Assembly (NCBI RefSeq): GCF_019061125.1 | Contig: NZ_JAHQYI010000001.1 | Span: 1,922,001 to 1,986,000 of the forward strand | Length of the DNA stretch: 64,000 nucleotides | DNA from: Microbacterium sp. NC79 | GTDB lineage: Bacteria; Actinomycetota; Actinomycetes; Actinomycetales; Microbacteriaceae | Reading direction: 5' to 3' | Shown here: positions 30,280-43,151 of the stretch, in pieces | How positions within the stretch are numbered: the stretch's first letter is position 1 | Layout of the letters: the number at the start of each line of letters is the position of its first letter | Program-made: the position numbers and the translations under genes | The notes under the pieces: model-generated | Seen by the model: the letters and a program-made list of their open reading frames with translations, nothing else | What the model was told of the DNA's origin: nothing | The model's database searches: none

Positions 30280-31845
30280 TCACTCCGACTCTGCGCGCTC
30301 GGCGGTAGCGATTATCCGGTTGACCATGCCGCTGAAGATGAAGCCATGAAACGGGAGCATCGCCATCCAGTAGAGCCGCCCGGAGAGACCGCGCGGAAAG
30401 AAGACCGCGCGCTGCCGATACTCGCAACCGTCTGGCCGAGGTTCGATCGTGAACTCAAGCCAGGCCTCGCCTGGCACCTGCATTTCGGCGCGCAGCCTTA
30501 GCACGCGCTCCGGTTCCAGGTGCTCCACCCGCCACACGTCAAGAGCGTCACCGACGGTCAGCCTGCGCCGCGAACGGCGGCCCCGCGTCATACCGACACC
30601 GCCGGTGATCCGATCAAAGAGACCACGCAACGACCACAGCAGCGACGCGGAATACCAGCCGTTGGTTCCGCCAATCTGCGTCACGACACTCCATACGTCG
30701 GCGGGACTCGCCTTGGTCGTTCGCCTGCGCACATCGGTAAACACCGTGCGCCCCGCCCAATTCGGGTCACTCGGCATCGGATCGCTGGGCGCGAGGGGCA
30801 CCCGAGCGTCAACCCAGCTCGTTTCGATTTCGTCCAGCTCAATGCGCCCAAGCGCGAGTCGAACGGCCCGACGATAGGGCGTCAAGCCACCCTCCGGTCG
30901 CGAAATAACATCATCGATGTCGTGGTTCTTCATGACGCAGTCGTGTTGCAGCGACTCGACAAGAGGGCGCGCAATCGCGCGCGGCACCGGCGTCACAAGC
31001 CCGACCCAGTGCGAGGCAAGCTTCGGCGTGAGCACAGGAAGCGCCGCAATGCCGCGTTGTGGCAAGCCCGCTTCGACTGCGTACCCGTTCATCATCTGCC
31101 CGTATCGCAAGACATCAGGGCCACCGATATCGAACGCGCGGTTGAGGTCGCCAGGCGCGTGCGCTGCCGCGAGCAGGTAGTAGAGCACGTCGCGTATCGC
31201 AATCGGTTGAATGAAGTTTCGCACCCACCGCGGCGCCGGCATGTATGGCAACACCTCGGTGAGGTGGCGCACCATCTCAAATGAGGCGGAGCCGGAACCA
31301 ATAATCACGCCTGCTTGAAAAACCAGGGTGGGAGCGCCAGAAGCCAGCAGGATCTCACCGACCTCACGTCTCGAGGCGAGGTGGGGTGAGAGTTGCACAC
31401 CATCAGGGTGCAGTCCGCCAAGGTAAACCATCCTGCGCACTCCGGCACGAGCACTCGCGGCAGCCACGGTATGCGCAATGGCGCGATCAGTTTCGGCAAA
31501 CTCGCGCCCCGCGGTCATGGAGTGCACCAGGTAGTAGACAATATCCACTCCGGACATGGCGGCACTCACCGCGTCCGAATCACTCGCATCTCCGGTTGCG
31601 ATCTCGACGCGGTCAGCCCACGGCAACGCCTGAACCCGGGCTCGTGATCTGGTCAGCACCCGCACCCGGTATCCGCCAGCCAGCAGACGCGGCACGATGC
31701 GACCGCCCACATAGCCGGTCGCGCCGAGAACTAAGACCCGAGGCGCAGACTCCCCCTGCGCATGCGCGGAGCGTAGTGCGGCCTCCGTTCCGCGGGGAAA
31801 CGTCAAATCCCCCTCCGCGTGTTCGGGCGTCGCCCTGACTGCCAT
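30280..31845 (-). CDS. SDR-family NAD(P)-binding oxidoreductase with C-terminal DUF2867
   Basis: A 521-residue two-domain protein. The N-terminal atypical SDR (about 35-300) has VLVLGATGYVGGRIVPRLLAGGYRVRVLTRS with the GxxGxxG motif. The C-terminal DUF2867 (about 345-520) contains WSVVTQIGGTNGWY and ends FHGFIFSGMVNRI. The fusion is common in actinobacteria; the substrate is unknown. GGAGGGG lies 4-5 nt before ATG 31845, and the start is 1 nt from the MarR stop, so the two genes form one operon, divergent from the carotenoid genes. Confidence 0.85.
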   Translation of the reverse strand: MAVRATPEHAEGDLTFPRGTEAALRSAHAQGESAPRVLVLGATGYVGGRIVPRLLAGGYRVRVLTRSRARVQALPWADRVEIATGDASDSDAVSAAMSGVDIVYYLVHSMTAGREFAETDRAIAHTVAAASARAGVRRMVYLGGLHPDGVQLSPHLASRREVGEILLASGAPTLVFQAGVIIGSGSASFEMVRHLTEVLPYMPAPRWVRNFIQPIAIRDVLYYLLAAAHAPGDLNRAFDIGGPDVLRYGQMMNGYAVEAGLPQRGIAALPVLTPKLASHWVGLVTPVPRAIARPLVESLQHDCVMKNHDIDDVISRPEGGLTPYRRAVRLALGRIELDEIETSWVDARVPLAPSDPMPSDPNWAGRTVFTDVRRRTTKASPADVWSVVTQIGGTNGWYSASLLWSLRGLFDRITGGVGMTRGRRSRRRLTVGDALDVWRVEHLEPERVLRLRAEMQVPGEAWLEFTIEPRPDGCEYRQRAVFFPRGLSGRLYWMAMLPFHGFIFSGMVNRIIATAERAESE

Positions 31846-31846
31846 G

Positions 31847-32461
31847 TCACCCCTCCGGTTCGTCCTGCTTTCGCGGCACAGGCAAATCACTGCCCGCCCA
31901 CTCAGAACGATCAACACTGATTGCGTTGGTCATGTCGTTGAGAAAGGCCGTCACGATGTCACGGTGCTCGCGGCTCAACCGCGAAGCGGCGTAAAAGCGG
32001 CGCGCTTGCTGCCTTCCAACCACGCGCTGGATGAGCGCCTCGGTTCGCGGAGCGACGTCGATACGCAGTGCGCGCCGATCATCAGGGTGCAATGCCCGCG
32101 TGATGTGCCCGGCGCGTTCCAATCGATTAAGAAGTTTTGTCGTGGATGCGGGCGACGTCTGCATGTGTTGCCCCAGCATCGTCGGCGTCACCAGCTCCCC
32201 CTCGCGGATCACCGTCACCAGGTAGCGCAGCGCCCTCATATCCTGAACGCTGAGCGCCATCGATTCTCGCGATGCCTCCGCGAGCTCTCGCTCGGCATCA
32301 CGCAGACGCGCCAATGCATTCATGACAGCGGTGATGCCGTCGCGGTCAACAGCGGCCACATCGGGGGCTTCCACGACCGCCCCTTCGGTCGAGGCATGCA
32401 CAAGAAGGTCCGCGTCGTGAACGACGTCTACCGCTTTTGTTGCTCGCTGCCGTGGGTTCAT
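31847..32461 (-). CDS. MarR-family regulator, probable controller of the carotenoid operon
   Basis: A 204-residue regulator with a winged-HTH at about 85-150: TPTMLGQHMQTSPASTTKLLNRLERAGHITRALHPDDRRALRIDV, the full MarR signature including the wing DDRR. Flanking helices provide the dimer interface. AAGGAAG precedes the ATG. It is divergent from idi-crt across 104 bp. In Corynebacterium a MarR protein (CrtR) at the same kind of position represses crtE and senses the isoprenoid precursor GGPP; position supports the same job here, but ligand and operator are inferred. Confidence 0.85.
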   Translation of the reverse strand: MNPRQRATKAVDVVHDADLLVHASTEGAVVEAPDVAAVDRDGITAVMNALARLRDAERELAEASRESMALSVQDMRALRYLVTVIREGELVTPTMLGQHMQTSPASTTKLLNRLERAGHITRALHPDDRRALRIDVAPRTEALIQRVVGRQQARRFYAASRLSREHRDIVTAFLNDMTNAISVDRSEWAGSDLPVPRKQDEPEG

Positions 32462-32511
32462 TCATCTTCCTTGTGCGTTGGAGAAACCAAGCCCAATTAC
32501 TTTCCTATGGT

Positions 32512-32535
32512 TTACTATATCGCTAAAGCTAATAA
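32512..32535. promoter_or_regulatory. Candidate MarR operator between the MarR gene and idi
   Basis: The AT-rich stretch contains inverted half sites TTACTA (32512-32517) and TAATAA (32530-32535), imperfect by one base, about 30 nt upstream of the idi start in a GC-rich background. It overlaps TATAGT on the minus strand, a possible -10 of the MarR gene. Confidence 0.35.
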
Positions 32536-32565
32536 ATCACTTGACTCATGTTGCCGGAGGCGACA

Positions 32566-33129
32566 ATGGCAGAATCGCCAGAAATGGTCGTCTTGGTGGA
32601 CGACGACGGCATCCCCCGCGGTGCAATGCCAAAACGTGACGTTCACGGAGCCAACACTCCCCTTCACTTGGCGTTCTCGTGCTATATCTCCGATCCTCAG
32701 GGCCGAGTGCTCGTGACCCGGCGAGCGCTAGGTAAACAAACCTGGCCCGGCGTGTGGACAAACAGCTTCTGTGGGCACCCCGCTCCCGGCGAAGCGATGA
32801 CCGATGCCGTCAAGCGGCGAGCACAGCAGGAGCTCGGGGCGTCGATCACAAACGTGACGTTGCACTTGCCAGACTTTCGTTACCGAGCTCTCGATGCTTC
32901 GGGCATCGTGGAGAACGAAATCTGCCCGGTCTTTACGGCCGAGTTATCGAGCCCGCTTGCTCCCGTGCACAGTGAAGTCAGCGAATGGGAATGGACGACG
33001 CACGCTGCGCTCGCCGACGCCGTAGCTGCCGCACCGTTTGCGTTCAGCCCCTGGCTACGAGAACAACTGCCTCTCCTGCTCCGCGCGCATGCTTTCACAG
33101 TGGGGGTGCGTGATGACCACAATGCGTGA
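32566..33129 (+). CDS. idi: Isopentenyl-diphosphate delta-isomerase, type I
   Basis: A 187-residue Nudix-fold isomerase converting IPP to DMAPP for isoprenoid synthesis. The catalytic cysteine is in TNSFCGHPAPGE (near 67), the catalytic glutamate in EVSEWEWTTH (near 140), and LHLAFSCYISDPQGRVLVTRRALGKQTWPGVW is the family N-terminal core. CCGGAGG lies 5 nt upstream of ATG 32566. It leads the carotenoid operon and overlaps crtE by 17 nt. Confidence 0.95.
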   Translation: MAESPEMVVLVDDDGIPRGAMPKRDVHGANTPLHLAFSCYISDPQGRVLVTRRALGKQTWPGVWTNSFCGHPAPGEAMTDAVKRRAQQELGASITNVTLHLPDFRYRALDASGIVENEICPVFTAELSSPLAPVHSEVSEWEWTTHAALADAVAAAPFAFSPWLREQLPLLLRAHAFTVGVRDDHNA

Positions 33130-34228
33130 ACGGCTACGAAACCCGGAAACGGTTCAGACGGAGATCACGACGCGGTTGCACGCCCTGATGCAAGCGAAAT
33201 CAACGCAGGCCGCGGCCCACGGGTCCCATTTTGCTGAGCTGTGGGCACTGACCTCACAGGCAGCCCAGGGCGGGAAGCTGTTGCGCCCGCGGCTGGTGCT
33301 CGGTGTTTTCGATGGATTTCGCGCCACCGCCGCGACCAATACCCACCCTCGTGAAACAGCAATCGACCTGGCAGCCGCGGTCGAGCTCCTGCACTTCGCG
33401 TTCCTCCTGCATGACGACCTCATCGATGAGGATCTGACGCGCCGCGGCGTGCCTAACCTCGCCGGTTCACTCGTCACAAGCGTTGCGTCCACGCAACTCC
33501 AAGGCTCTGATCCCGGCGACGAGACCCGTCGCATGCATTGGGCTCGCAGTAGCGCTCTGCTGATGGGCGACCTGATGCTGACGCTCGCCCATCAGGTATT
33601 CGCGCGTGCCCGGGTTGCTGACCCAGAACGTTCGCGCATGCTCGACCTGCTGGACACGACCGTCACCGAAACCGTCGCAGGTGAGTACATCGATGTCAGT
33701 CTTGCCGATGCCCAGATCACGCCGACCCTCCCCCTCGTACTCGACATGACACGAATGAAGACGGCGACCTACTCGTTCGAACTGCCGCTACGACTCGGAG
33801 CGATCGTCGCAGGCGCTGGCGCGCTGGCTGAGCAGCGGCTGGGCGATGTCGGCCGTCATTTGGGTATCGCGTTTCAATTGCAGGATGACCTTCTTTCGGC
33901 GTTCGAGCAGAGCGAAAGACACGGCAAAGATCAATTTTCTGATTTTCGCGAAGGTAAAGAAACCGCCCTCATTGCGTGTGCCCGACTCACTAACGAGTGG
34001 CCTCTCATCGAACGGCTCATGGGCCCAACCAACTTCTCGGAAGAGTCCGGCCGTGCGCTTCAGCAATTGCTGCACGAGTGCGGCGCTCGGGACGTCATCG
34101 AGGCGATGGTGCGTGATCAAATTGAAATTGCCGAAAATATCCTGACCCGCGATGATCATGTCATAGCGCCAGAGGTGTGCCAGTTTCTGCTCGCGCTCAT
34201 GGCTCGAATGGTGGGGCGTCAATCATGA
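33113..34228 (+). CDS. crtE: Geranylgeranyl diphosphate synthase (polyprenyl synthetase)
   Basis: A 371-residue prenyltransferase that condenses IPP units onto DMAPP/FPP to give GGPP. The first aspartate-rich motif is in LLHDDLIDEDLTRRG (near 100-114). The second region reads FQLQDDLLSAF near 260, with Ser where the last Asp of DDxxD would be, as is common in actinobacterial GGPP synthases. Also typical are LMGDLMLTLAHQVFARA and the KTATYSFELPLRLGA segment. It starts inside the end of idi and overlaps crtB by the ATGA motif. Confidence 0.92.
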   Translation: MTTMRERLRNPETVQTEITTRLHALMQAKSTQAAAHGSHFAELWALTSQAAQGGKLLRPRLVLGVFDGFRATAATNTHPRETAIDLAAAVELLHFAFLLHDDLIDEDLTRRGVPNLAGSLVTSVASTQLQGSDPGDETRRMHWARSSALLMGDLMLTLAHQVFARARVADPERSRMLDLLDTTVTETVAGEYIDVSLADAQITPTLPLVLDMTRMKTATYSFELPLRLGAIVAGAGALAEQRLGDVGRHLGIAFQLQDDLLSAFEQSERHGKDQFSDFREGKETALIACARLTNEWPLIERLMGPTNFSEESGRALQQLLHECGARDVIEAMVRDQIEIAENILTRDDHVIAPEVCQFLLALMARMVGRQS

Positions 34229-35196
34229 GCCGCGACCTCGATGGACTGGCCCCCCTGGAACGATATTCGGCAGCTTCAGAACGTGCTGCTGATCAAGTGA
34301 TCCGCGCATACTCGACCTCTTTTGGCGCAGCGACCCGTCTGCTGGGCCGGCGGCATCGGCGGCATGTGCGCAATATTTACGCTCTCGTGCGCGTCGCCGA
34401 CGAACTCGTCGATGGTGTCGCCGCTGAAGCCCACTTGGCACCCATCGAGCAGTTGGCCCGTTTGAATGCGTTCGAAGCCGAAACCAATAGCGCGATGCAC
34501 ACTGGGTACAGCAGCAACCCCATCGTGCACGCGTTTGCGTGCACGGCTCGGGCGTCGGGGATCGACTCGACACTTACCGCTCCATTCTTCGCCTCCATGC
34601 GCACCGACCTCGAGCCGTTCTCGATCACGGGAAATGGGCCGGAACCAGCACTCACATCAGCAGGCGTGGCCCCGGTGAGCCGCCGTGCCGGTGTCGCCGT
34701 CGCCGCCGGCCATCGTTTCGACGACGAGGCGCATGCGAGCTACGTATATGGCTCTGCTGAGGTGGTCGGGCTCATGTGCCTACGGGTTTTTCTGCGTGCG
34801 GAGCAGGTGACCGAGCAACAGCGTGCGCAACTCGAACAGGGCGCGCGGAGCCTCGGCGCTGCCTTCCAAAATGTCAACTTTCTGCGCGATCTGGCGGATG
34901 ATACCGAGAGACTTGATCGCAGCTACCTGAGCGTGGAAGACACAATTACCGATGAGTGCAAGGCCCAGTGGGTTGCCACAATACGCTCTCAGCTCGCCGA
35001 TGCCCGACGCGTAATGCCGCTCCTGCCTCGTGATGCTCGCATCGCCGTCGATGCCGCCCGCAGGCTATTTTCGAAACTCACGGATAACATCGACCGACGC
35101 ACCGTCTCACAACTTATGGGCCAGCGCGTGCGGATTCCGCTCCCGGTAAAACTAACGCTGATCGCGAAGTCAATAAGCTCCAGAGGCGTCGCATGA
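34225..35196 (+). CDS. crtB: Phytoene synthase
   Basis: A 323-residue squalene/phytoene synthase joining two GGPP to phytoene. Substrate-binding acidic motifs are RVADELVDG (near 58) and NFLRDLADDTERLDRSYL (near 227), the latter preceded by QNV as expected. YVYGSAEVVGLMCLRVF is the conserved central helix. Between SMRTDLEPF and RFDDEAHASYVYG there is an extra ~25-residue Ala/Pro/Gly-rich piece (about 137-161) that family members known to me lack. Both neighbours overlap by ATGA. Confidence 0.93.
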   Translation: MSRDLDGLAPLERYSAASERAADQVIRAYSTSFGAATRLLGRRHRRHVRNIYALVRVADELVDGVAAEAHLAPIEQLARLNAFEAETNSAMHTGYSSNPIVHAFACTARASGIDSTLTAPFFASMRTDLEPFSITGNGPEPALTSAGVAPVSRRAGVAVAAGHRFDDEAHASYVYGSAEVVGLMCLRVFLRAEQVTEQQRAQLEQGARSLGAAFQNVNFLRDLADDTERLDRSYLSVEDTITDECKAQWVATIRSQLADARRVMPLLPRDARIAVDAARRLFSKLTDNIDRRTVSQLMGQRVRIPLPVKLTLIAKSISSRGVA

Positions 35197-36806
35197 CTCG
35201 CACTATTATCATCGGAGCCGGAATCGCCGGTTTGGCAACGGCAGCGCTCCTCGCGCAGGAGGGGCACGATGTCACCGTATTGGAGCGCGGCGATCGCGTG
35301 GGAGGTCGCTCGGGAACAATAGAGCGTGACGGATTTTGCTTTGATACCGGCCCGTCCTGGTACCTCATGCCGCGGGTATTTGACCATTTCTTTGAGTTGA
35401 TGGGCACCTCGGCGGCTGAACAACTCGATCTGCACACACTCGACCCGGGCTATCGCCTGATTACTGAGCCTCTCGAGGGTGAGGCTTCGACTAACCTCAC
35501 GATCCCTTACGGCACGAATGCCATTGTCCAGGTGTTCGAAAGCTTGGAACCGTCAAGTGGGCACCGACTTCGCCGCTATCTGAAATCTGCACGACGCGCT
35601 TCAGACCTGGCGGAACGGTTCTTCCTTTACAACCCGTTCACCTCCGCCCGTTCGCTCATGCACCGCGATATTCTTGTCGCGCTGCCCCAACTCACCACGC
35701 TCCTCCTTACGCGGCTACAGGACTTCGTTAAGCGACGCTTTAAGCACCCGGCGCTGCGTCAGGTACTCGGGTATCCTGCGGTTTTTCTGGGAACGGATCC
35801 CCGCCGTGCACCCGCGATTTACCACCTCATGAGCGCGCTCGATCTGGATGACGGCGTGCACTACCCGATCGGCGGGTTCTCCGCTGTCGTGCAGGCCATC
35901 GCCGCACTGGCTCGCGAGGCCGGGGTAACGATTATCACGGGCGCGGAGGCGACCGAAATTATGACCGAACAATACGGTCGTCATCGCCGCCGCGCCGTGG
36001 GTGTGCGTTGGCACGATTCGTCGAGCATCGAGCACACCGAGCAAGCCGACATCGTGGTGTCTGCCGCCGACCTGCACCACACGGAGACCACACTTCTACC
36101 GTCTGATGCTCGCAGCTACCCGGAATCCTGGTGGCAGAAACGCGAAAGCGGCCCCGGCGGCATTCTCATCATGCTCGGCGTCGCGGGGAGCCTGCCGCAA
36201 CTGGAACACCATTCGTTGCTTTTCACCGCCGACTGGGACGCGAATTTCGACGCAATCTTCGGTTCTTCACCACGCGTTCCGGATCCGGCCTCCGTCTACG
36301 TGTGCAAACCGAGCGCGACCGACCCCGGCGTCGCGCCACGCGGACACGAGAATCTCTTCGTTCTGATTCCGGTCCCTGCCGACGTCAACCTCGGATCAGG
36401 AGGTGCCGATGGTGCCGGCGATCCGCTGATCGAAGCAGTAGCGGATCGCGTTATCGCACAGATCTCGCAGTGGGCGGGAATCCCTGATCTACAAGAACGC
36501 ATTGTCACGCGGCACACGATCGGCCCAGCAGACTTTGCTCGCGACTACAACTCATGGCGAGGAGGCATGCTGGGGCCGTCACACATCCTGCGTCAGAGTG
36601 CGATGTTCCGCCCTCAAAACGCCTCGAAGCGCGTCGACGGGTTGTATTACGCCGGTGCCACGACTGCACCCGGCGTCGGGGTACCCATGTGCCTGATCAG
36701 CGCTGAACTTGTGCTTAAGCGCATTCGCAATGACAATTCTGCCGGGCCGACAACGCCCACCCGCGCCGCGGTTCAAACGGAGGGTCGACTTCATGACACT
36801 GCCTGA
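35193..36806 (+). CDS. crtI: Phytoene desaturase
   Basis: A 537-residue FAD-dependent desaturase. The dinucleotide-binding motif TIIIGAGIAGLATAALLAQEGHDVTVLERGDRVGGRSGT is at 3-40, and FDTGPSWYLMPRVFDHFFELMG follows. The C-terminal carotenoid-binding FAD motif is YYAGATTAPGVGVPMCLISAELV near 488. It introduces four double bases' worth of desaturation to turn phytoene into lycopene; the number of steps cannot be read from sequence. It overlaps crtB by 4 nt and crtYe by 14 nt. Confidence 0.94.
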   Translation: MTRTIIIGAGIAGLATAALLAQEGHDVTVLERGDRVGGRSGTIERDGFCFDTGPSWYLMPRVFDHFFELMGTSAAEQLDLHTLDPGYRLITEPLEGEASTNLTIPYGTNAIVQVFESLEPSSGHRLRRYLKSARRASDLAERFFLYNPFTSARSLMHRDILVALPQLTTLLLTRLQDFVKRRFKHPALRQVLGYPAVFLGTDPRRAPAIYHLMSALDLDDGVHYPIGGFSAVVQAIAALAREAGVTIITGAEATEIMTEQYGRHRRRAVGVRWHDSSSIEHTEQADIVVSAADLHHTETTLLPSDARSYPESWWQKRESGPGGILIMLGVAGSLPQLEHHSLLFTADWDANFDAIFGSSPRVPDPASVYVCKPSATDPGVAPRGHENLFVLIPVPADVNLGSGGADGAGDPLIEAVADRVIAQISQWAGIPDLQERIVTRHTIGPADFARDYNSWRGGMLGPSHILRQSAMFRPQNASKRVDGLYYAGATTAPGVGVPMCLISAELVLKRIRNDNSAGPTTPTRAAVQTEGRLHDTA

Positions 36807-37161
36807 CTCCCTGCAATACATCGCGCTCATGGCCGGTTGTTTGTTGATCACTTTGCCCCTGGAATTTGTTTTTGGCGCGCGCGTGTACCGGCGACCGTTG
36901 CGTCTTGCCCAGGCTGTACTTGTGACCCTTTTGGTGTTTTCCGTTTGGGATGCCATCGCGATTGCCGCAGGATTGTGGACTTACAGCCCGCGGTTCACGA
37001 GCGGCATCATTGTCGCGTTCGGCCTGCCGCTGGAGGAAATCATCTTCTTCATCGTCATTCCGATCTGCGGAATCCTCACGTACGAGGCTGTCGGACGCGT
37101 ATTCCACCTGGTTCGAACGTGGGCACGTCGCCATCAGCGGACTCAGGGAGAGGCGCGATGA
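36793..37161 (+). CDS. crtYe: Lycopene cyclase domain protein, subunit 1 (CrtYe/CrtYc type)
   Basis: A 122-residue membrane protein with three TM helices (about 7-28, 38-60, 73-100). The motif FGLPLEEIIFFIVIPICGILTYEAV holds the PxE(E)xxFF signature of heterodimeric lycopene cyclases. ATG 36793 overlaps the crtI end. With the next gene it forms the active cyclase. Confidence 0.9.
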   Translation: MTLPDSLQYIALMAGCLLITLPLEFVFGARVYRRPLRLAQAVLVTLLVFSVWDAIAIAAGLWTYSPRFTSGIIVAFGLPLEEIIFFIVIPICGILTYEAVGRVFHLVRTWARRHQRTQGEAR

Positions 37162-37496
37162 ACGCATTTGGGGCGTACCCGGTAGCGACCATTGTCACGA
37201 TTATCGCGGTGGTGTTGATTGAATTGTTGTGGCTGCGCACCGGCGTATTCCGCTCAGTCCAGTATTGGGTGGCGATGACGATCATGCTGTCATTCCAGGT
37301 GGCGGTTGACGGCTGGCTTACGAAGCTCTCCGACCCCATCGTGATCTATAACCCGAATACATCGTTGGGGCTGCGCTTTCCGTGGGATATTCCGGTTGAA
37401 GACTTCGGGTTTGGGTTTGCAATGCTAACTATCACGATCGTCGTGTGGAAGGCCCTGGGACGCCGAGCGGAACCACAAGAGGCGAACGATGACTAG
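37158..37496 (+). CDS. crtYf: Lycopene cyclase domain protein, subunit 2 (CrtYf/CrtYd type)
   Basis: A 112-residue membrane protein with three TM helices. NPNTSLGLRFPWDIPVEDFGFGFAM includes the conserved PxED motif. ATGA overlap with the first subunit and an 8-nt overlap with crtU. In Brevibacterium the pair CrtYcYd makes beta rings on C40 lycopene, whereas CrtYeYf of corynebacteria work on C50 flavuxanthin. No elongase gene (crtEb) is present, so beta-carotene is the likely product. Confidence 0.9.
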   Translation: MNAFGAYPVATIVTIIAVVLIELLWLRTGVFRSVQYWVAMTIMLSFQVAVDGWLTKLSDPIVIYNPNTSLGLRFPWDIPVEDFGFGFAMLTITIVVWKALGRRAEPQEANDD

Positions 37497-39063
37497 GGCG
37501 CCATTTGGGGGACGCGATCGCCGCGCAGTGGCCTTTCCGGGCCCTCCCGGCGTGGAACGGGTAAAACAGCCGCGCACCGTGGCCGTTGTCGGCGGAGGAA
37601 TTGCCGGGATGGCGGCCGCGTGCGGACTCGCTGAACGGGGTGTCGATGTCGAATTGATAGAACCACACGCCGAGCTGGGGGGTCGGGTGCGAGCCTGGCA
37701 GACAAATTCGCCTGCCGGCGCGGTGACGATGAGCCGCGGCTTCCATGCATTTTTTCGGCAGTACTACAACCTGCGCGCGCTACTCTCGCGGGCAGGTGAT
37801 CTCAGTGAAATGCTGCAACCTGTCGCTGACTACCCCGTTGTGAGCGCTCACGGCGACCGTGATTCCTTCACCAAGATTCCACGGACGCCGCCGTGGAACT
37901 TCATGACGTTCGTTGCTCAGAGTCCAACCTTTTCCCTGCGGGACTTGACACGCGTCGATCTGGATACCGCCCTGGCGCTCCTCGACGTCTCATTCCCAGA
38001 GTCCTACCGCGATCTGCAAGGCCTCAGCGCAGCTCAGTTCCTAGATAAGTTGCGGTTTCCGGAGCGTGCACGTCACCTCGCGCTTGAGGTGTTTGCACGA
38101 AGCTTCTTCGCCGACCCGGAGGACTTTTCGGCTGGCGAATTAGTCGCGATGTTTCACTCGTACTTTCTCGGCTCGGCCGAGGGCCTGTTATTCGATGTCG
38201 CGCGGGATGATTTTGATACGGCGTTATGGCAACCGCTCGGCTCGGCATTGGAGCGCGCTGGGGTGCGTCGCAGTGTTGCACGGGTCAGCGAAGTCAGGCG
38301 CAGCAGTGACGGCGCTCGCTGGCAGGTCATTCGTGAGGATGGCGAGCGCTCCACGGTCGACGGTGTGGTTCTTGCCGCTGGTCCCGGCGCGACGCGAGAC
38401 ATCGTCGCGGCATCATCGACGGTCGGCACGGCGCAGTGGCGCAAGCGCGTCGCCGACGTCCGCCTCGCTCCAGCCTTCGCCGTGCTCCGACTGTGGCTGG
38501 ACGGAAAGGTCAGCGATGATCGTCCGGCTTTTCTTGGCACAGCCGCCTACGGTCCGCTCGACAACATCAGCGTCATGGAGCGGTTTGAACGCGGCGCCGC
38601 AGAGTGGTCAGCAGCGAATAATGGAAGCGTCGTTGAGCTCCACGCATACGCCATACACGATGATGATGCCGCTGATCCGGTTCGCCGGAAGCAACTGGGC
38701 GACAGACTCCGCGCGGAGCTCGCTCGGGTGTATCCCGAGACGGCATCGCTCAGCATCATCGCGCAGGAGTTTCTCATCGAGCAAGACTGCGCACTCCTTG
38801 GCACAGGTCGGTGGGAAGAACGTCCCGAGGTGCGTACACCCGCATCGGGGATCGTCCTCGCTGGCGACTGGGTGCGCACCGATTTACCCATTGCCCTCAT
38901 GGAACGTGCCGCCACGACGGGGTGGATGGCCGCAAATGAACTGCTACGCGACTGGGGTGTCGCCGGTCATACCCTGTGGAGCGTGCCCATATCGAGTCGT
39001 CAGCGATGGCCCGGCATCTCCCGTGCGCTTATGGAGCGTCTGCCGGGGCGAAGGAGAGCGTGA
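37489..39063 (+). CDS. crtU: Isorenieratene synthase (beta-carotene desaturase/methyltransferase) CrtU
   Basis: A 524-residue FAD protein. The Rossmann motif is VAVVGGGIAGMAAACGLAERGVDVELIE near 30-58. The specific CrtU blocks follow: MSRGFHAFFRQYYNLRALLSRAGDL, IPRTPPWNFMTFVAQSPTFSLRDL, FARSFFADPEDFSAGELVAMFHSYFLGSAEGLLFDV and the C-terminal GIVLAGDWVRTDLPIALMERAATTGWMAANELL. CrtU desaturates the beta ring and shifts a methyl group to give aromatic phi ends, so the pathway should end in isorenieratene. Its last 35 bp overlap the convergent P450 gene. A general carotenoid oxidoreductase is the alternative, but the block matches are strong. Confidence 0.88.
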   Translation: MTRAPFGGRDRRAVAFPGPPGVERVKQPRTVAVVGGGIAGMAAACGLAERGVDVELIEPHAELGGRVRAWQTNSPAGAVTMSRGFHAFFRQYYNLRALLSRAGDLSEMLQPVADYPVVSAHGDRDSFTKIPRTPPWNFMTFVAQSPTFSLRDLTRVDLDTALALLDVSFPESYRDLQGLSAAQFLDKLRFPERARHLALEVFARSFFADPEDFSAGELVAMFHSYFLGSAEGLLFDVARDDFDTALWQPLGSALERAGVRRSVARVSEVRRSSDGARWQVIREDGERSTVDGVVLAAGPGATRDIVAASSTVGTAQWRKRVADVRLAPAFAVLRLWLDGKVSDDRPAFLGTAAYGPLDNISVMERFERGAAEWSAANNGSVVELHAYAIHDDDAADPVRRKQLGDRLRAELARVYPETASLSIIAQEFLIEQDCALLGTGRWEERPEVRTPASGIVLAGDWVRTDLPIALMERAATTGWMAANELLRDWGVAGHTLWSVPISSRQRWPGISRALMERLPGRRRA

Positions 39064-40171
39064 AGTCGCGCAGCTGATATCCCTGCACAAGCGTGTCGAA
39101 ATCGCGGCGGGGGCGTACGGTGATTGTTGCGCCAGCCCGAAGGAGCGCGGTGATAAGCACGTCAGTTTCCATCAGCGCGAGGGAGGATCCGGGGCAACGG
39201 TGTGCACCATCTCCAAAACTTAAGCCGGTGCGCTCTGCTGCCTTCAGGTCACGCTCAGGGCACATTTTGCTTGGGCTAGGTGTAAAGACCCGAGGGTCTT
39301 GATTGCTGGCTCGCACGTCAATGTCGATCAAGGTGCCCGGCGGGTAAGGACAGCCGGGCGCTTCGGTTTGAGCACGACGGTAAAGGTGCGCAACGGGCGG
39401 CTCGAGCCGGATGATCTCACTGAGAATAGCCGTGCGCTCGGCGACCGGGGCGGTGCGGTAGCGAGCAAGAATCTCCGGTGTTTCGTGCAACCGAAGCATC
39501 ACCATGCTGATGAACTCACGGGTGGTGACCATGCCCGCGGTGCCATAGGTGAGACACTCCATCAAAATTTCTCGCGGGCGGTATCCCCTCTCCAGCAAGA
39601 AGGAGATAATGTCATCTGCTGGCCGGGAACGACGAGCGCGGATGGCAGGTCGCACGTCGTTCCAGTAAAACTCGGCGAGCGGAACCAGTGCGTCGCGTGC
39701 TGCACGCGCCCAGTCTTTGTTCGTGCGACCGTAGTCATCGCGGGTGTGGTCTACGGGAGGTTGCTGGAAAAACGCTTCGAGTCGGCGTGCGAGCGCCGCA
39801 GTGTCGGTGCCACCCAACCCCACAATCTCGGCGGCTACCCGCACAGAAAAGAGCAGCGCCAAGTCGTCCAGCTGCGCCGTGCCGGCGTGGCGTGCCGGGT
39901 CGATGAGGTCAGCCGCCGCACGTTCCATGAAGACGCGATGTGCTTCGAGCGCGCGGGGGCTAAAGAATCGAACGAGTTGGCGGCGATGCTCTTGGTGGTC
40001 GGCCCCGTCATCCATCAGGATCGGTCGTCGCGCGAATAGCCGGGCGGGAATCCGTTCCGCGGTGAAGCCCGCTTGGGTCGTCGCAAGTTTGGCCCTTAGC
40101 AGCGCTTGGCTTTCGGCCATTCCGGTGAGTGTCACGACGGAGTGCGGTGAGCGATGAACTCGCCTCGCCAT
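39029..40171 (-). CDS. Cytochrome P450, candidate carotenoid (isorenieratene) hydroxylase
   Basis: A 380-residue class I P450. The haem loop FGDGAHRCPG carries Cys326, ExxR is in EIIRLEPP, and the I-helix reads GTAGMVTTREF, in which the usual acid-alcohol pair is altered (Val-Thr-Thr). GGAAAG lies about 8 nt upstream of ATG 40171. The gene is 12 nt downstream of the BLUF gene on the same strand and convergent with crtU. A P450 has been linked to 3-hydroxylation of isorenieratene in Brevibacterium, so the same role here is plausible but inferred. No ferredoxin or reductase gene is nearby. Confidence 0.85.
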   Translation of the reverse strand: MARRVHRSPHSVVTLTGMAESQALLRAKLATTQAGFTAERIPARLFARRPILMDDGADHQEHRRQLVRFFSPRALEAHRVFMERAAADLIDPARHAGTAQLDDLALLFSVRVAAEIVGLGGTDTAALARRLEAFFQQPPVDHTRDDYGRTNKDWARAARDALVPLAEFYWNDVRPAIRARRSRPADDIISFLLERGYRPREILMECLTYGTAGMVTTREFISMVMLRLHETPEILARYRTAPVAERTAILSEIIRLEPPVAHLYRRAQTEAPGCPYPPGTLIDIDVRASNQDPRVFTPSPSKMCPERDLKAAERTGLSFGDGAHRCPGSSLALMETDVLITALLRAGATITVRPRRDFDTLVQGYQLRDFTLSFAPADAP

Positions 40172-40183
40172 TGTTCGGCTTTC

Positions 40184-40624
40184 CTAGGCCCGCGCTGCGC
40201 GCACGCGGAACCACAGGGTTAATTCACCCAACGCCTGCAGAACGCGCGCGGGGTCGTCGGAACGCTCGATTTCTGCGAAGGTATTACGGAACCCCGTCGG
40301 CACCGCGAATGACGATTCTCGGAAGGGCTCGTAGCCCATCTTCCATGACGGGAAGCGACGCGACGCGACCTGCTCTCGCAACAGCACCCTCACGTTCGCG
40401 TGGCGTGAATCTGCTGCGATATTTTCGTACACCGCGAGCACGTCTTCCTGGGCACCCTCCAGATATTGCACGAAGCGGCCCTGCCGATAGAGGAGAAGGC
40501 CCGTTATGCCAAGGCGCTCGTTGCGGCCACGCGCCTGTTCGAGAATGGCTTGCAGTCCGGCTTCGGTCACCGAGCCGACGGCATCGCTGGAATAGACAAG
40601 GCAATACAGCGGAGTTTCAAGCAT
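40184..40624 (-). CDS. BLUF-domain blue-light photoreceptor
   Basis: A 146-residue short BLUF protein. All flavin-pocket residues are present: Tyr7 in PLYCLVYSS, Asn35 in ARGRNERLGITGLLLY, Gln53 in GRFVQYLEG, and both Trp94 and Met96 in FPSWKMGYEP. About 45 C-terminal residues form the capping helices, with no fused enzyme or HTH, so it must signal by protein contact. It overlaps the upstream small gene by 8 nt and precedes the P450 by 12 nt, so it is co-transcribed with a likely carotenoid-tailoring enzyme. Confidence 0.92.
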   Translation of the reverse strand: MLETPLYCLVYSSDAVGSVTEAGLQAILEQARGRNERLGITGLLLYRQGRFVQYLEGAQEDVLAVYENIAADSRHANVRVLLREQVASRRFPSWKMGYEPFRESSFAVPTGFRNTFAEIERSDDPARVLQALGELTLWFRVRAARA

Positions 40625-40868
40625 CGTTTAGCGCCCCCTCTTGGCGCGTGGCAGTATGAACAGCCGCCAAGCAGTTTATCGCCGACGTTAAGTCGCGAAA
40701 AAAAGCCAATTGTTGCGACGTCGCAGTGCACACTTGAAACGAATCATCGTTTAAGCGGTCGATGTAGCCCACGAACCCGTTCTGGTTACTCGCAACGTAA
40801 AACCCGTCTTCCACGCACGCCCACGTTAAACCTGCCGTGGCGTTGGGGACTGGAGGGGAATCCGTCAC
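40617..40868 (-). CDS. Small hypothetical protein, first gene of the BLUF-P450 operon
   Basis: An 83-residue protein, VTDSPPVPNATAGLTWACVE then DGFYVASNQNGFVGYIDRLNDDSFQV. The W....DGFYVASNQNGFVGYID pattern resembles short beta-sheet proteins common in actinobacteria with no known function. I chose GTG 40868 (CGAGG about 8 nt upstream); an upstream ATG at 40931 is possible. Its end overlaps the BLUF start, which suggests translational coupling and possibly a BLUF partner (inference). Confidence 0.6.
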   Translation of the reverse strand: MTDSPPVPNATAGLTWACVEDGFYVASNQNGFVGYIDRLNDDSFQVCTATSQQLAFFRDLTSAINCLAAVHTATRQEGALNDA

Positions 40869-40996
40869 GAAGGACCTCGTTTGTTGGGTTGAACTCTCTT
40901 GCAAGTATCGGCGACGGCCCGCCTCTTCCACAACGACGACACGGCAAACTGGTAGATTGATCTGTGCACAAATTAATTGCGGAAGAGGAGTGCGCT

Positions 40997-42113: not shown

Positions 42114-43151
<1,038 letters not shown>

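Follow-up and report, generated by a model that had tools for sequence, protein, structure and literature searches.

A small protein encoded directly upstream of a short BLUF photoreceptor: a candidate new partner family repeatedly placed beside aromatic-carotenoid genes

What does a short BLUF photoreceptor signal to when it lies at the end of an aromatic-carotenoid cluster, in one operon with a small gene of no named family and a cytochrome P450 gene? The question is raised by Microbacterium sp. NC79 (Microbacteriaceae), of which we analyzed a stretch of 64,000 nucleotides (nt; contig NZ_JAHQYI010000001.1, positions 1,922,001 to 1,986,000), referred to here as the window. Few short BLUF proteins have an output partner that has been identified. 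The trio is real and conserved, and the stronger finding is a new partner family together with its repeated placement at aromatic-carotenoid clusters. We favor, with some reserve, a blue-light signaling module made up of the small protein and BLUF, whose target, reached in trans, would be a regulator of the pigment genes, most likely a MarR protein. The genes concerned are as follows (aa, amino acids).

40617..40868, minus strand: small gene (83 aa, GTG start), BLUF-associated and of no named family; its model has five strands and a helix
40184..40624, minus strand: short BLUF photoreceptor gene (146 aa), with an 8-nt overlap with the small gene
39029..40171, minus strand: cytochrome P450 gene (380 aa), after a 12-nt gap behind the BLUF gene, of the aromatic-carotenoid cluster type
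37489..39063, plus strand: crtU, carotene desaturase/methyltransferase type, convergent with the P450 gene

A preliminary description of the locus had read the three minus-strand genes as one operon convergent with crtU. This was confirmed at the spacings given, and from the coordinates of crtU and the P450 gene it follows that their 3′ ends share 35 nt. The same description had called the BLUF short and free of an attached output domain, which is borne out by its length, by a single Pfam match (PF04940, residues 6-97, 105.9 bits at a cut-off of 25) and by C-terminal helices after the core, modeled at residues 115-121 and 125-145 (mean pLDDT 82, with lower confidence there). The flavin-site Tyr, Asn, Gln, Trp and Met expected of a short BLUF are present: Y11, N35, Q53, W94 and M96 are invariant in a 19-sequence alignment and match the positions that form the flavin site in AppA. 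The genome holds one BLUF and one photolyase-type match, in a photosensor count that covered BLUF, photolyase-type and B12-binding domains.

The small open reading frame is a real gene, judging from its relatives, at 57-66% identity, and from its pattern of substitution. Compared with its counterpart in an uncultured Microbacterium (L034, ~66% protein identity), dN is 0.22 and dS 1.39, and the differences fall mostly at third codon positions (20, 14 and 40 at the first, second and third). Searches of Pfam, NCBIfam and PHROGs (each at E<=0.1) and of the PDB sequences (E<=10) gave no match for the protein, and four of its relatives were likewise without a Pfam family match. The fold comparison made for it was with the methane monooxygenase inhibitory subunit; since Foldseek gave no match at E<=0.001 and the VIA-align result was middling, we make no claim as to its fold. 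On the comparisons that follow, it is best read as belonging to a new BLUF partner family that has no name.

These comparisons rest on samples of the family (398 genomes) and of the order (396 genomes), and on 54 genomes of Leucobacter. BLUF was found in 98 of the 398 family genomes. Among the best 38 places matched by the small protein, 19 lie directly upstream of a BLUF gene, including all of the top 16 (with 150 BLUF places among the matches listed); 10 of these 19 pairs are training rows of the profile and 9 lie outside it. Whatever start codon is chosen for BLUF, 21-77 nt separate the two domain matches. The association is tightest in Leucobacter, where 13 genomes carry BLUF and the same 13 carry the small gene (E<=1e-12); the naive probability of 13/13 versus 0/41 is 9e-13, with kinship ignored. 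Each of the 18 stop-free BLUF places there is directly preceded by the small gene in the same orientation; the 19th BLUF match contains an internal stop codon. The small-protein partner looks obligate for BLUF in Leucobacter. Across the order sample, 14 genomes hold 17 profile matches at E<=1e-12, of which nine adjoin BLUF, two of them in another family, and the rest are BLUF-free relatives.

In 32 of 34 neighbor rows the distance from the stop of the small gene to the nearest BLUF start codon is -11 to +12 nt, a measure that favors short gaps by taking the nearest start codon, and in which L037 and L192 are one locus. The two other rows are a fused frame and a decayed copy. The fused frame (L158:8975-9637, minus strand) holds both domains, small then BLUF, in one open frame of 221 aa from GTG, and adjoins a normal small-BLUF pair. 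Proteins found fused in a single frame are classically taken to work together. The decayed second copy (L154:5889-6140, minus strand) has a stop inside the BLUF match, in a genome with three intact pairs. Genome comparison names the BLUF partner directly, by adjacency, by co-occurrence and once by a common frame, and the suggestion in the preliminary description that the small protein might be the partner of BLUF is the best-supported part of that account. No such pair was seen in the titles and abstract openings of the listed open-licence PMC papers on BLUF with Leucobacter, Microbacterium/Microbacteri- or crt/LitR. Nor did a plasmid-borne pair come to light: the pair-type small protein had no match in 72,556 plasmid records, all BLUF matches in those records were below 60% identity, and the single plasmid BLUF neighborhood opened, from Dietzia, had no annotated small gene upstream.

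Sorted by their neighbors, 38 of 63 distinct BLUF cores are paired with the small gene. In a 62-row BLUF tree the paired rows lie on one side of a branch with a support of 94.9 (not starred), with 24 single rows, provided that L128_2, the fused protein truncated at the end of its locus, is treated as paired. The BLUF trees are quick trees, and the sample holds more paired than single BLUFs. Heading the columns that are conserved among paired BLUFs but not among single ones are 134, 141, 118, 113, 142, 130 and 131, and every one of these falls within or beside the two modeled C-terminal helices. According to the available text of one source, the C-terminal region of the short BLUF protein PixD is required for holding its partner PixE (PMC5899715). 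We treat the paired-specific columns as suggestive only, because single BLUFs are more diverged in that region too.

An alternative is that the small protein is a chaperone or expression leader for BLUF and not a signaling partner. The constant upstream position of the gene and its tight spacing would fit this, but the protein is conserved under purifying selection and is found fused in frame, and the BLUFs on the other side of the tree manage without it. We regard this explanation as highly improbable.

How is the pair connected with carotenoid genes? According to the preliminary description, its reading would fail if the trio were not kept beside crtU elsewhere; the trio passed, since six other genomes keep the small gene, BLUF and P450 convergent with crtU. 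They are the uncultured Microbacterium already mentioned (L034), Microbacterium mitrae (L035), Gulosibacter macacae (L036), Leucobacter luti (L037), Leucobacter zeae (L038) and a genome of the same genus as Leucobacter (L191, genome G415). The seven trio BLUFs form a clade (support 99). The BLUF of Leucobacter sp. wl10 (L039) falls elsewhere; its small gene and BLUF immediately precede crtYc-crtYd-crtU in the same orientation, and its P450 gene is convergent at the opposite end of crtU, away from the pair. A tree holding all eight crt-linked BLUFs as one clade was rejected (AU p 0.0055), which implies two or more separate placements of the pair next to aromatic-carotenoid genes, with the P450 involved only once. 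Comparison thus shows the small gene to be tied to one BLUF clade, directly upstream of it and once fused to it, and the pair to have come to lie at aromatic-carotenoid genes at least twice.

These two separate placements also bear on the idea that the pair is a general blue-light or stress module with no special carotenoid link, whose crt neighborhood is accidental. Most examined pair loci do lie in unrelated neighborhoods, and an adjoining crt cluster was not seen in 23 of 31 distinct pair loci, as read with a home-made gene caller that missed genes in several of them. Against this, besides the placements, phytoene desaturase was found in 23 of the 23 pair-bearing genomes searched outside the trio, a figure for which the background rate was not measured. 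We think a general module unlikely, though a serious competitor.

The P450 itself has an ordinary role in the cluster. It matches PF00067 at 65.1 bits, the heme and ExxR motifs are invariant in a 28-sequence alignment including the window, and both its motifs and its place in the aromatic-carotenoid cluster agree with those of an isorenieratene-hydroxylating P450. In a protein search, 1154 of the 7997 scored were relatives at E<=1e-20, of which the best 120 were listed; equal lengths of the longest contig (51761, 341794, 10474, 9388 and 2296 bases) suggest five P450/BLUF pairs that share contigs, the first two being those of L034 and L038. The locus counts refer to 80 of 102 confirmed loci in named genomes. 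In these, crtU is present at 57 and lies <=3 kb from the P450 gene at 53, and BLUF is present at six, adjoining the P450 gene at five; 22 have no crt gene, some of them being on short contigs. Judging from these neighborhoods, the P450 family lies mostly beside crtU in other actinobacteria and nearly always without BLUF. One such case is Leucobacter ruminantium (L040), with P450 and crtU and no BLUF on the locus. In the even sample of the family the P450 is found in 3 of 398 genomes at E<=1e-70. Five of the 54 Leucobacter genomes have it at E<=1e-90, in three of them beside the pair.

The closest known case is Brevibacterium aurantiacum ATCC 9175 (L076), with the order idi-crtE-P450-crtYc-crtYd-crtU and a P450 49% identical to that of the window. 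As in the window, the gene belongs to the cluster, in Brevibacterium between crtE and crtYc-crtYd-crtU, but no BLUF or small gene was found at the locus. Isorenieratene hydroxylation dependent on P450 is reported for this species in the available text of the source (PMC12096840), so the P450 of the window is probably an isorenieratene hydroxylase. By analogy, its product is most likely 3-hydroxy or 3,3′-dihydroxy isorenieratene. The preliminary description had proposed light-tuned hydroxylation of isorenieratene by a direct sensor-enzyme pairing. Hydroxylation is made probable by the activity reported for the species of that relative; a dedicated BLUF-P450 pairing was not supported, with BLUF at so few of the P450 loci. 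In that pairing BLUF, with or without the small protein, would bind the P450 and tune its activity by light; the shared operon is its natural support. We reject it as the leading explanation and consider it improbable, given in addition that only 3 of 18 small-BLUF pairs in Leucobacter adjoin a gene for this P450 and that the pair of strain wl10 stands apart from it. A pathway enzyme on a transcript common to the small protein and BLUF is the best explanation of the P450 gene.

The leading candidate target is a regulator of the cluster, on which the following features of the window bear.

32548..37496, plus strand: carotenoid genes idi, crtE, crtB, crtI, crtYc and crtYd
31847..32461, minus strand: MarR regulator gene in the CrtR position, divergent to idi (32548, plus)
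32508..32523, plus strand: conserved element TGGTTTACTATATCGC, in the intergenic region of MarR and idi
40904..40933, minus strand: promoter-like TTGTGG-N18-GATACT of the small-BLUF-P450 operon, similar in L034 and L035 (by eye)
30280-31845, minus strand: SDR-DUF2867 protein gene, next to the MarR gene

The genes from idi to crtU are all open frames in a single direction. The preliminary description had stated that LitR, named there as the usual route of light control, is absent. This was supported: a search that gave matches in 12 of 14 controls turned up no B12-binding domain in the genome, which is 99% complete, and hence no LitR or other regulator of the LitR/CarH kind. The account given there of the usual route was incomplete, since light-induced carotenoids in Micrococcales have been linked with CrtR, as the available text has it (PMC6739363). 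The same text, of 2019, reports light-induced carotenoids in Micrococcales and Corynebacteriales, with the MarR repressor CrtR worked out in Corynebacterium glutamicum; it describes the responsive genomes as having no apparent LitR, LOV or BLUF, and CrtR binding as unchanged by FAD, FMN and AdoB12 (PMC6739363). The window resembles this system in its MarR gene divergent to idi, the first carotenoid gene, and in that LitR was not found (PMC6739363, PMC5401885, available text). It differs in having BLUF and a partner at the cluster, whereas the available text describes none of LitR, LOV or BLUF there (PMC6739363).

We infer that the small protein binds BLUF, that light affects the binding and what the target is, along the following lines. 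Blue light would shift the FAD-Gln-Tyr network of BLUF, and its C-terminal helices would then alter their grip on the small protein. The pair, bound or released, would in trans affect a regulator that controls the pigment genes, for which the likeliest candidate is the CrtR-type MarR repressor at the promoter of idi, while co-transcription would couple the dose of P450 to that of the sensor. Two known systems each resemble one step. In PixD-PixE of Synechocystis a short BLUF with C-terminal helices likewise has a separate partner, but PixE is response-regulator-like and of 43 kDa, whereas the partner here has ~80 aa and no Pfam match (PMC5899715, available text); neither the small protein nor the four relatives matched against Pfam show a response-regulator family there. 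In BlsA-Fur of Acinetobacter a short BLUF binds a transcription factor in a light-dependent manner, as proposed here for the target step, but that target is Fur, the available text describes no dedicated small partner, and MarR as target is here only inferred (PMC5955987).

Some neighborhoods are consistent with a MarR target. In four Leucobacter genomes (L153, L155, L185, L188) a MarR gene lies 3′ of BLUF on the same strand, at a gap of 123 nt in L153 and 97 nt in L155, with a second MarR gene and an SDR-DUF2867 gene nearby. All 16 bases of the element TGGTTTACTATATCGC are kept in L034 and L035, 15 in L036, 14 in L038 and 13 in L037, and the element may serve the divergent MarR regulator as its operator. 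As an operator common to both operons it was rejected, with a single match in the window (<=3 mismatches), at idi. A MarR gene beside the pair was also rejected as a rule: in the stretch read, matches above 160 bits occur at 12 of 31 distinct pair loci, 8 of which owe the gene to the position of the pair at a crt cluster. None of 11 single-BLUF loci has a MarR match above 160 bits, with two weak matches of 28 and 80 bits.

Several points weigh against a MarR-directed module. TGGTTTACTATATCGC had no match at the trio, whose promoter-like sequence is a different one. The four cases of MarR behind BLUF are one BLUF clade, the MarR proteins in L153 and L155 are just 25-26% identical to that of the window, such a MarR gene is missing from the stretch read at 19 of 31 distinct pair loci, and five genomes hold 30-34 MarR_2 matches apiece. 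As for the partnership, the one-sided placement of the paired BLUFs comes from a quick tree with unstarred support, the single BLUFs show greater C-terminal divergence, the fusion in L158 is known from one genome and may be a sequencing error, and wider relatives of the small protein exist without BLUF. The profile has matches in 146 of 398 family genomes at E<=0.001, and the BLUF-free relatives that were read have a hydrophobic C-terminus. Four of them (L160:7413-8086, L161:7194-7882, L162:7466-8220, L163:7463-8130) each lie close behind a DUF7882-type gene, in a tight pair with it, with MarR genes near; these are possibly a wider signaling family.

Light-induced carotenoids in LitR-free Micrococcales are documented, with a sensor still lacking according to the available text (PMC6739363), and the small-BLUF pair is a candidate sensor in a side group. 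It is a tentative possibility, and no stronger, that the small protein is the first of a new BLUF effector family in Micrococcales and that the pair, as the blue-light input in this side group, relieves MarR (CrtR-type) repression of carotenoid genes and so fills the photosensor gap. Its repeated placement beside aromatic-carotenoid genes makes the pair a testable candidate light switch of pigment production; a sensor-partner pair lies inside the cluster of the culturable Microbacterium mitrae, where the question of the sensor can be put directly. The pair may also serve as a compact blue-light switch.

Two features of the surroundings remain. Of the 8 crt-linked loci, 5 (window, L034, L035, L036 and L038) have the SDR-DUF2867 gene next to their MarR gene, and in L153 and L185 it is seen near small-BLUF pairs with ferrochelatase-like genes (by eye). 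Its family label also takes in a neighboring hydrolase, which is fused to SDR-DUF2867 in L153, and in L037, L191 and L192 it is this hydrolase that gives the 'SDR' rows of 101-111 bits. The carotenoid, P450, BLUF and small genes (34177-40868) have a third-position G+C of 0.62-0.71, versus 0.87 in a neighboring ribonucleotide-reductase-like gene (42114-43091, named by eye), and the carotenoid cluster may have been gained horizontally.

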